A DNA stretch of 64,000 nt, taken from contig NZ_FWXU01000003.1 of the NCBI RefSeq assembly GCF_900176345.1, positions 62,001 to 126,000 of the forward strand. Direction: 5' to 3'. A program made the translations under genes and the position numbers. The notes under the pieces are model-generated. The model made no database searches. It had not been told where the DNA came from and was given only the letters and a program-made list of their open reading frames with translations. Every line of letters begins with the position of its first letter. Position 1 is the stretch's first letter. Shown here piece after piece: positions 7,769 through 26,606 of the stretch. This DNA comes from Rhizobium sp. RU36D. Lineage in GTDB: Bacteria; Pseudomonadota; Alphaproteobacteria; Rhizobiales; Rhizobiaceae.

Positions 7769-7795
7769 GCACCGGTTGACGGCAGGAGCCTGAAG

Positions 7796-8080
7796 ATGCC
7801 GCATAAAATTAGGGCGGAACCTCACAAACGTGCGGTCAACTTGCGTATGCGTGAAGACATCAGGGCGTTGATTGATCGCGCAGCCAAAAGCCAAGGCAAG
7901 ACGCGCTCGGATTTCATGATCGATGCCGCCCGGCGTGCAGCCGAGGACGCCTTGCTGGATCATACCCTCATCCGAGTCGATCCGGACGCCTATGCTCATT
8001 ATATTGCCGTCCTGGACCGGCCGGCGGCGGGTCCCGGCGTTGATCGGTTGATGAGCGCCCCAAGACCCTGGAAACCGTAG
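7796..8080 (+). CDS. DUF1778 / TacA-type ribbon-helix-helix antitoxin
   Basis: Antitoxin of 94 residues of the TacA family, which neutralises a GNAT-type toxin that acetylates aminoacyl-tRNA. The N-terminal RAVNLRMREDIRALIDRAAK and the following helix KTRSDFMIDAAR are the ribbon-helix-helix part. The C-terminal tail with DPDAYAHYIAVLDRP matches the toxin-wrapping region. The ATG at 7796 has GGAG about eight bases upstream; a GTG at 7763 is possible but overlaps the candidate operator. Its partner toxin should follow with overlapping codons, yet only a 25-codon remnant is present, so this looks like an orphan antitoxin. It could still repress or neutralise copies elsewhere. Confidence 0.85.
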   Translation: MPHKIRAEPHKRAVNLRMREDIRALIDRAAKSQGKTRSDFMIDAARRAAEDALLDHTLIRVDPDAYAHYIAVLDRPAAGPGVDRLMSAPRPWKP

Positions 8081-24765: not shown

Positions 24766-25365
24766 TCAGCCCTTCAGCAGGTTCGCCAGCTTCTGCTGCG
24801 CGACATCGGTATTCTCACCATAGGAAATGGTGCCCTTGAACCGCCCTTGCGCATCCAAGAGGAAGACCGAGGCGGTGTGGTCCATGGTGTAGTCGCCGTT
24901 CGGATCCTTTTCGTCCGTCGGGATCTTCTTGGCATAGACCTTGAAGCCCTTGATAACCTCCGCGATCTTTGCGGGATCGCCAGCAATGCCCTTCACCCGG
25001 TCAGTCACATTGGAAATGTAACGCCCCAAGAGCTCAGGCGTATCGCGTTCCGGGTCGACAGTGACGAAATAGGCCTGCAGGCCGGTGCCCGAGGGATCGA
25101 CTGACTTCAGCCAGCCATCCAGTTCGAACAGGGTCGTCGGGCAAACTTCCGGGCAATGGGTGAAACCAAAGAACAGCGCGGTCGGCTTGCCGCGGAAGGC
25201 CTGCTCGGTAATCGGCTTTCCGGTCTGGTCCACCAGTTCGAACGGAACGCCGAAGGGCGCATCCGCCACCTGCTGCTTGCTTTGCGTGATGGTGAGAGTA
25301 AGCCAGCCCAAAACACCAGCCAAGGCCAGAACGGCCACCCAGAGAACAACCCGTACCGTCTTCAT
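24766..25365 (-). CDS. SCO1/SenC family protein (cytochrome oxidase copper assembly)
   Basis: Membrane-anchored periplasmic thioredoxin-fold protein of 199 residues that delivers copper to the CuA site of cytochrome c oxidase or serves as a redox partner. An N-terminal helix (about residues 5-25) is followed by the copper site CPEVC (C71 and C75), with His163 in MDHTASVFLL. AGGAAGG precedes ATG 25365. Upstream lies a 52-residue membrane protein gene, and beyond it an FNR/FixK box, which suggests a link to respiration at low oxygen. Confidence 0.92.
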   Translation of the reverse strand: MKTVRVVLWVAVLALAGVLGWLTLTITQSKQQVADAPFGVPFELVDQTGKPITEQAFRGKPTALFFGFTHCPEVCPTTLFELDGWLKSVDPSGTGLQAYFVTVDPERDTPELLGRYISNVTDRVKGIAGDPAKIAEVIKGFKVYAKKIPTDEKDPNGDYTMDHTASVFLLDAQGRFKGTISYGENTDVAQQKLANLLKG

Positions 25366-25515: not shown

Positions 25516-25674
25516 CTAAAAACAGTAGGCGAGCCCTGTTTCCGAAAGAGACAGGATGATGGCGTCACCGAAATGCAGCCAGCCTGTGAAAGCCATCGCC
25601 GCCGCGGCAACAGCGAGCGCCGACAGCGCCACAAAGGGCAAGAAGGCAGATGATCTTATGGCAGCAGCAATCAT
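25516..25674 (-). CDS. Small predicted membrane protein
   Basis: A 52-residue frame, MIAAAIRSSAFLPFVALSAL and onward, with one hydrophobic helix through residue 30. The amphipathic tail ends ILSLSETGLAYCF. Codon choice is like that of the neighbours, and the compact hydrophobic design looks real, but the ribosome-binding site is weak and I cannot name a family. It lies between the SCO1 gene and the divergent DUF2189 gene, 69 bases from a perfect anaerobox, so a respiratory accessory role is a reasonable guess. Confidence 0.5.
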   Translation of the reverse strand: MIAAAIRSSAFLPFVALSALAVAAAAMAFTGWLHFGDAIILSLSETGLAYCF

Positions 25675-25742
25675 GGCGCTATGATAACGCAGCCGGTGTC
25701 AGGGCGAAAGTGGCAACTATTTCGTCATAACTCCGGGAAGGC

Positions 25743-25756
25743 TTGACGGAAATCAA
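25743..25756. promoter_or_regulatory. FNR/FixK-type anaerobox
   Basis: TTGACGGAAATCAA matches TTGAY-N4-RTCAA perfectly. It lies 61 bases before the DUF2189 start and 69 bases before the start of the divergent small membrane protein. FixK, FnrN and related activators of rhizobia bind such sites under low oxygen. The match is seen; binding is inferred. Confidence 0.65.
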
Positions 25757-25817
25757 GGATTGCACAAGCGATTTGCCCATAGGATTCAAGGTGCCACAAT
25801 CGTCTTGGGAGGGATGA

Positions 25818-26606
25818 ATGGAACAGCAGACCATCACGGGCATACCGCCGAAGCTGAAGATCAACAAGCTGGAGCTTGCCGATGTGAAGTCGGCATTTTT
25901 AGCGGGTTGGGCGGATTTCCTGAGCTATCCGCTCTATGGTCTGTTCTTCGGCGCCATCTATGCAGCCGGCGGCGTGTTCATCACCGTCTTCCTGGCCTAT
26001 TATCACCTGCCCTGGATGATCATCCCCGTGGCGATCGGCTTCCCGCTGATCGGTCCCTTCGTGGCGGTCGGCCTTTACGAAATCAGCCGTCGCCGGCAAG
26101 CAGGCATCGCCATAACCTGGCAGGGTATCCTCGGCGAAGTGTTTCGCCAGAGGGAGCGCCAACTGTCCTGGATGGCGTTTGCGGTGCTGTTCATCTTCTG
26201 GATCTGGATCTATCAGGTGCGCCTGCTGCTGGCGCTGTTTCTCGGCTTCAAGATCCCGGCATCGCTCGGCGCCTTGGCAACCGTCATCGCGACAACGCCC
26301 GAAGGCCTGACATTTCTCTGCGTCGGCACGATCGTCGGCGCCGTGCTGGCAACGCTTCTGTTTTCCGTAACCGTCATATCGATGCCGCTGCTGCTTGACC
26401 AGGACATCGACTTCATCACGGCCATGATCACCAGCGTGCGCAGCGTGGCGGAAAATCCAGCACCCATGCTGCTCTTCGGCTTCATCATAGCCTGCCTGAC
26501 GCTAGTCGCGCTGATCCCCGCCTTCCTCGGACTGCTTGTCGTCCTGCCCGTCGCCGGCCATGCCACATGGCATCTCTACCGGCGTGCGATCGCCCCGATC
26601 TTCTAG
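25818..26606 (+). CDS. DUF2189 integral membrane protein
   Basis: A 262-residue inner-membrane protein with about six hydrophobic segments. The N-terminal amphipathic LELADVKSAFLAGWADFLSYP and PLIGPFVAVGLYEISRR match DUF2189, a family of unknown function often found near respiratory or denitrification genes. GGGAGGG lies immediately before the start. The FNR/FixK box at 25743-25756 suggests induction at low oxygen. Its divergent neighbours are the small membrane protein and the SCO1 gene. Confidence 0.85.
   Translation: MEQQTITGIPPKLKINKLELADVKSAFLAGWADFLSYPLYGLFFGAIYAAGGVFITVFLAYYHLPWMIIPVAIGFPLIGPFVAVGLYEISRRRQAGIAITWQGILGEVFRQRERQLSWMAFAVLFIFWIWIYQVRLLLALFLGFKIPASLGALATVIATTPEGLTFLCVGTIVGAVLATLLFSVTVISMPLLLDQDIDFITAMITSVRSVAENPAPMLLFGFIIACLTLVALIPAFLGLLVVLPVAGHATWHLYRRAIAPIF

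Follow-up and report, generated by a model that had tools for sequence, protein, structure and literature searches.

Gene content of the locus

In this study, we analysed a 64,000-nucleotide stretch of DNA from Rhizobium sp. RU36D (referred to here as the window), in which a palindromic FNR/FixK-type box lies between two divergent genes. The features discussed are as follows, with positions counted from the first letter of the window:

24766-25365, minus strand: SCO1/SenC copper chaperone gene (PF02630 SCO1-SenC, E 8.3e-47)
25516-25674, minus strand: ORF for a 52-residue, SCO1-linked membrane protein with the C-terminal sequence ...GLAYCF, conserved in relatives
25681-25686, minus strand: predicted -10 element TATCAT of the small ORF, its TA core also kept by aligned relatives that have no box
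25743-25756, plus strand: palindromic FNR/FixK-type box TTGACGGAAATCAA, exact and single in the window
25780-25785, plus strand: predicted -10 element TAGGAT of the DUF2189 gene, read from the sequence and aligned with relatives
25807-25813, plus strand: ribosome-binding site GGGAGGG of the DUF2189 gene (TCTTGGGAGGGA at 90% or more per column in aligned same-genus loci)
25818-26606, plus strand: DUF2189 gene (PF09955), encoding a 262-residue polytopic membrane protein with a CysZ-like fold in the structure model

The initial annotation had described an exact match to TTGAY-N4-RTCAA at 25743, placed between divergent units, with a small membrane protein and a copper chaperone on one side and a DUF2189 protein on the other. 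All of this was borne out: the palindrome TTGACGGAAATCAA fits the pattern exactly, it separates the 52-codon ORF from the DUF2189 gene, and Pfam recognizes the proteins of the two larger genes, while no Pfam family was found for the small ORF. The SCO1 gene lies beyond the range 25516-26606 that had been quoted for these features.

The box and its conservation in relatives

Exact TTGAYNNNNRTCAA is present in the window as a single copy, at 25743, where 0.19 copies are expected per shuffled window. Among the 47 other copies of the gene in the genus, 29 carry an exact box between -71 and -78 of the aligned DUF2189 start (30 of 48 with the window's own copy). In the same place the box carries one mismatch at L064 and L100 and two mismatches at L070 and L103, and in the remaining 14 of the 48 copies no close match was found there. 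A count over the proximal stretch, in which the choice of start was less well anchored, gave an exact box in 23 of 47 same-genus loci; this figure is lower because an upstream start codon was sometimes taken, whereas the 30 of 48 are anchored on the aligned first residue. No exact box was found in a control stretch from -450 to -320 in any of 47 same-genus loci, window included. It is therefore extremely unlikely that the box is a chance match, even though 17 of 100 window shuffles contained at least one exact box, since its fixed distance is kept in so many relatives and the control stretch is empty.

The initial annotation had named absence of the box from orthologous regions as one of the results that would refute its proposal. 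The 29 loci with an exact box speak for it; however, in 18 others the box is missing or decayed. FnrN is kept in 17 of the 18 genomes without an exact box, and loss of the regulator thus does not explain loss of the box. The exception is G030, an 88% complete genome in which the best FnrN match reaches only 34%. Outside the genus, an exact box is rare in the window's subfamily of DUF2189 (2 of 22 loci within 500 bp), and in two control stretches of this subfamily it was not found. Among 71 named loci (L160-L230), which were taken as outside the genus, six have an exact box within 300 bp.

A second, DUF2189-containing cco cluster was observed in 13 genomes of the genus, eight of which (G008, G013, G014, G021, G022, G027, G030 and G037) are without an exact box at the locus corresponding to that of the window; for comparison, the exact box is missing from 10 of the 35 other same-genus copies, counts that are uncorrected for relatedness.

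Promoter layout on the two sides of the box

In the aligned upstream regions from the genus, the ribosome-binding site of the DUF2189 gene is kept, and the box is kept in most. Measured from the element TAGGAT, transcription of the DUF2189 gene is predicted to start at about 25792, which would place the centre of the box at about -42. The usual centre of a class II activator site is -41.5. On the other side, the predicted -10 element of the small ORF ends six bases before the ATG, so that a leaderless transcript is predicted, and the centre of the box would be about 75 bp, not about 42 bp, from the start of that transcript. This promoter reading is based on sigma-70 spacing and on leaderless-start reasoning, and the difference between the two distances means that the position of the box agrees with the DUF2189 side. 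A functional box is very likely and, judged from this predicted geometry together with its positional conservation, it is highly probable that it controls the DUF2189 gene; to this extent the proposal of a low-oxygen box at this locus is supported.

In the available text of PMC7888657, the fixNOQP and fixGHIS promoters controlled by FnrN/FixK carry an anaerobox of the form TTGAT-N4-ATCAA, and the window box belongs to the same class of palindromes. The activating boxes are there put at -32 to -34 by the authors' own count, whose reference point may differ, and the downstream edge of the window box would lie at about -36. The window box differs in that its target is the DUF2189 gene, not an oxidase or fixGHIS gene, and in that the transcription start is a predicted one.

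The small SCO1-linked protein

The 52-residue ORF is a conserved gene. Of 47 same-genus loci, counting the window, 46 have an intact copy, whose conserved tail has the form F-x-G-W...G...GL-x-x-C-F/L, and the ORF looks to be under purifying selection, with a median dN/dS of 0.37 from 739 usable of 1035 pairs, many of them near synonymous saturation. With a profile of the protein, 48 genomes of the genus gave a match, near full-length in 47 and reduced to a 12-residue piece in G030. Outside the genus the matches were weak, with E from 7e-4 to 5e-3, in four genomes, in three of which (G078, G086 and G093) the match lies beside SCO. When eight SCO loci outside the genus were read, a small ORF adjoined SCO in five, namely the three found by the profile and two of the five others (L286 and L287), which were recognized by eye from their tails. 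These ORFs with GLxxCF-like tails (L271, L272, L273, L286 and L287) lie upstream or downstream of SCO and belong to five other families. Within the genus, the small ORF is present and absent together with DUF2189, and in genomes of the genus that have no DUF2189 it was not found at any of 11 SCO loci. Despite this tracking of DUF2189 within the genus, the small protein is best seen as a putative partner of SCO1.

These observations bear on the idea of the initial annotation that both sides of the box form one small microaerobic respiration island, in which the box would drive DUF2189 and the small ORF-SCO1 unit together. The order PrmA-SCO1-small ORF-box-DUF2189 is indeed kept in most same-genus loci, and the box stands almost midway between the divergent units. 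However, a -10 element of its own is predicted for the small ORF and is conserved even where the box has been lost, the box centre is about 75 bp from its predicted start, and relatives of the small ORF adjoin SCO in three other families in which DUF2189 is found elsewhere. The separate predicted promoter weakens the case for one box serving both sides, and we consider a single box-driven island quite unlikely.

Regulators and box sites in the genome

The genome to which the window belongs (6.08 Mb) contains 50 exact box sites, some of which fall within coding sequence, as compared with seven for the reversed pattern. Based on gene calls around the sites and a Pfam check of 20 proteins, boxes stand in front of ccoN, hemN/fnrN, nirK/nnrS, coxB, ctaA, ccmC and of genes for a CycH-type protein, a Usp protein and a CRP-type regulator. 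The genome also encodes a cognate regulator, FnrN, with an N-terminal cysteine cluster CRSCDARHGGVC (L083:3030-3971), whose gene is divergent from hemN and lies about 9 kb from ccoN. FNR regulons include many non-oxidase genes.

FnrN is not the only protein that could act on such a site. There are five CRP-type matches in the genome and one further CRP-like gene at L026, nirK and nnrS also have a box, and the targets of FNR, FixK and DNR are described as very similar in the available part of PMC2908626. The box might thus be used mainly by an NnrR/DNR-type or FixK-type protein of the CRP/FNR family, and the gene would then respond to nitric oxide or to a FixL cascade. With FnrN encoded beside hemN and near ccoN, and with the linkage of the DUF2189 family to cbb3 oxidase genes described below pointing toward the oxygen branch, we regard this as unlikely, and FnrN remains the preferred candidate.

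Two side observations were made on other sites in this genome. Four copies of a perfect palindrome, TTGACAGCTGTCAA, are located on one contig (C27:89008, 89843, 92022 and 93774; L023), and three of these precede a predicted gene by 102-123 bp. They are perhaps the operator of another regulator, not FNR. A second exact copy of TTGACGGAAATCAA is found at C25:156141-156154 (L088:3142), where one of the flanking genes encodes an amino-acid permease.

Linkage of the DUF2189 family to cbb3 oxidase genes

In a class-wide survey of 144 genomes that are at least 90% complete, own genome included, DUF2189 was found in 56 and a cbb3-type CcoN in 62; 48 genomes have both, eight only DUF2189 and 14 only CcoN (Fisher p 3e-17, uncorrected for relatedness and genome size). 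EI24, a membrane protein family used as a control in 57 of the genomes, also co-occurs with CcoN (p 3e-5, as compared with 2e-6 for DUF2189), so that genome size accounts for part of the co-occurrence signal; among the 35 of these genomes with at least 2.5 Mb, only DUF2189 co-occurs with CcoN (p 0.002 versus 0.39 for EI24). Position is stronger evidence for a tie between DUF2189 and cbb3. Class-wide, DUF2189 lies within 7.5 kb of 27 of 67 ccoN matches, in 27 genomes; for this count one of 77 DUF2189 rows was dropped as the second fragment of one gene (G105), and a short fragment in G227 was kept. No EI24 gene was found within 20 kb of ccoN at any of 32 EI24 places in the 57 genomes.

In the 100 relatives, own genome included, DUF2189 was found in 82. 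A diverged type of ccoN (54-59% identity) accounts for 17 matches, each of which is adjoined by DUF2189; this type is the only ccoN in G064 and G077 and an extra copy in 15 genomes. The arrangement varies. DUF2189 follows ccoNO(Q)P, in some loci with ccoI or ccoS next; it stands first, ahead of ccoN, and is itself preceded by a box in four genomes (L236, L237, L239 and L240; in L240 another box precedes ccoN); it is divergent from ccoN across a box at six loci; and it is found tail to tail with ccoI or in tandem after it. This variety suggests a functional bond rather than an inherited order. Of the 46 linked copies in the cco clade, 12 have an exact box between -150 and -20 and one has it in the control stretch, and in the divergent cases the box may instead serve ccoN.

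The sister subfamily of the window's protein is thus embedded among ccoG, ccoH, ccoI and ccoS, the cbb3 biogenesis genes in the available text of PMC8267372, although DUF2189 is a different Pfam family from these and the window's copy lies at a separate locus. In the literature searched, DUF2189 and BPSS1780 each occur in a single paper; no paper joining cbb3 with PF09955 was found, and neither was COG5473. One entry of the FNR core list in the available part of PMC2908626 (set 2905) is a hypothetical protein that could be DUF2189, although that text does not name it, and the FnrL targets in the available parts of PMC4634722 and PMC4263372 include unnamed hypothetical proteins, none of which was matched to DUF2189.

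Another small protein was observed in the cco operons. At 17 of 18 ccoNOP-DUF2189 loci, a conserved protein of 57-74 residues with one hydrophobic stretch is encoded between ccoP and DUF2189, the ORFs having been chosen by a C..H/Y pattern where one was present. Its tail reads ANxHLxxVAxxSQPxCVxHLK...RAAxxxC, and examples are L131:7083-7292 (minus strand), for which no Pfam match was found, and L138:8151-8348 (plus strand), with 15 more loci. At L134, a DUF1971 gene (7776-8069) lies between DUF2189 and ccoN.

The DUF2189 protein and the position of the window's subfamily

The window's protein belongs to DUF2189 with 122 bits (E 2.3e-35) against a Pfam cut-off of 26.2. It also gives a weak match over residues 30-255 to the BPSS1780 family membrane protein entry (NF041043; E 5.6e-4), of which it is not a member, since its 19 bits compare with a cut-off of 90. 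The structure model is of high predicted quality (pLDDT 90.4, pTM 0.86). A Foldseek search with it gave no match at E 0.001 or better. VIA ranked three CysZ entries at the top (Z 16.5, 14.7 and 13.7), followed by PNS1 and CTL1 (13.2, 12.6 and 12.5) and by all others at 6.5 or less; this aligner was restricted to Foldseek's candidates, and Z below about 13 may mean little for helical bundles. The predicted fold is therefore like that of the CysZ sulfate permease (EI24 family; available text of PMC5967866), with Z 16.5 and an rmsd of 3.2 over 199 residues. However, the likeness does not extend to the sequence level. No EI24 match was found by Pfam, a PDB profile search was negative, and so was hhalign, with probabilities of 0.28% and 0.81% that are within the control range (5 of 20 EI24 sequences, with doubtful frames, were left out of the alignment), so that sequence comparison lends no support to homology with CysZ. 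The part of the window's protein that, by eye, may correspond to the sulfate-binding GLR of CysZ reads G41-L42-F43 at the start of helix 38-60, and the arginine is not evident.

A tree of 107 of the 216 DUF2189 ORFs found divides the family into two subfamilies. In the cco clade, 36 of 37 rows are cco-linked; the clade with the window's copy has 70 rows, of which only three are known to be, namely L135, L242 and L190. The last of these, with the order ccoP-G-H-I-DUF2189, shares a subclade with the window's copy; it was labelled unlinked in the tree, its linkage being found on mapping. Both subfamilies keep D33, P80, Y87, S90, W130, G174, P190, S206 and P244 as well as a near-invariant C-terminal motif, G-H-A-T-W-H-x-Y. 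In the two subfamily row sets, H248 is present in 97% and 89% and H252 in 100% and 97%, and both histidines are invariant in a 53-row alignment of the window's subfamily. One guess is that this HxxxH, which lies in the last helix, may serve to bind metal or heme; it resembles the copper motifs of CcoA, MxxxM and HxxxM in the available part of PMC6362234, in spacing only.

The window's DUF2189 gene is not beside a cco cluster, being on contig C37 with ccoN on C74. Around the 71 loci L160-L230 of its subfamily, naming by eye gave housekeeping neighbours in Rhodobacteraceae and unrelated ones in Bradyrhizobium; most of these loci have no exact box, and SCO is beside or near five of the 71. Three Rhodobacteraceae loci (L221, L224 and L225) have two DUF2189 genes close together. 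In addition, no DUF2189 match was found in 11 genomes of the genus that are at least 94% complete, of which 10 keep ccoN, and DUF2189 is thus not indispensable. The suggestion of the initial annotation that DUF2189 could be an oxidase-assembly factor is supported in so far as the family is oxidase-related, being found in or against cbb3 clusters, but this applies mostly to the other subfamily than the window's. Given the sister subfamily, the neighbours and the genomes with ccoN alone, an oxidase role for the window's copy is something that we infer from its family, its predicted fold and its regulation.

A different role has to be weighed here, in which the window's protein would be a low-oxygen-induced transport or envelope protein, such as a CysZ-like permease or a scaffold, with no specific oxidase role, and only the sister subfamily would work with cbb3. 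The best fold matches of the model are permease-type (CysZ, followed by PNS1/CTL1), the window's subfamily is mostly unlinked to cco genes, and ccoN occurs without DUF2189 in the 10 genomes mentioned; however, the near-invariant residues are common to both subfamilies, linked members also occur outside the cco clade (L190, L135 and L242), and through its box the gene shares its kind of regulator with ccoN. We think that a transport or envelope role is possible but the less probable of the two, and we prefer a role in support of the oxidase.

Proposed role of the DUF2189 protein

According to the reading that we prefer, a dimer of an FNR-family regulator, most likely FnrN with its 4Fe-4S-type cysteine cluster, would bind the box at about -42 when oxygen is low and would activate transcription of the DUF2189 gene in class II fashion, together with that of ccoN. 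The product, an inner-membrane protein of predicted CysZ fold with the motif G-H-A-T-W-H-x-Y at its C-terminus, would then help to build or maintain the cbb3 cytochrome oxidase, and the sister subfamily appears to be retained in cco clusters for the same job. SCO1 and the 52-residue protein would constitute a neighbouring copper-chaperone unit, which has its own promoter and is not driven by the box. We give a probability of roughly 0.55 to the whole chain, from activation of DUF2189 by FnrN at low oxygen to support of the cbb3 oxidase by the membrane protein.

The idea can be taken further, though in this full form we consider it rather doubtful. DUF2189 might be a dedicated component of cbb3 biogenesis, a channel or cofactor-transfer protein of CysZ fold in which the HxxxH handles copper or heme for CcoN and whose expression is switched by FNR. 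One subfamily would have been kept in cco operons, and the window's would have become dispersed while still being switched by low oxygen in some lineages.

With cbb3 oxidases, bacteria can respire in root nodules and other places where oxygen is very scarce, and some of the factors that assemble these enzymes may still be missing from the known set. As a family that has no assigned function and recurs in cco clusters across many alphaproteobacterial families, DUF2189 is a good candidate for an overlooked cbb3 helper; it is a target that genetics can address directly, and its label gains a possible function. Two further targets are the small SCO1-linked protein and the small cysteine-containing protein encoded beside DUF2189 in cco operons.
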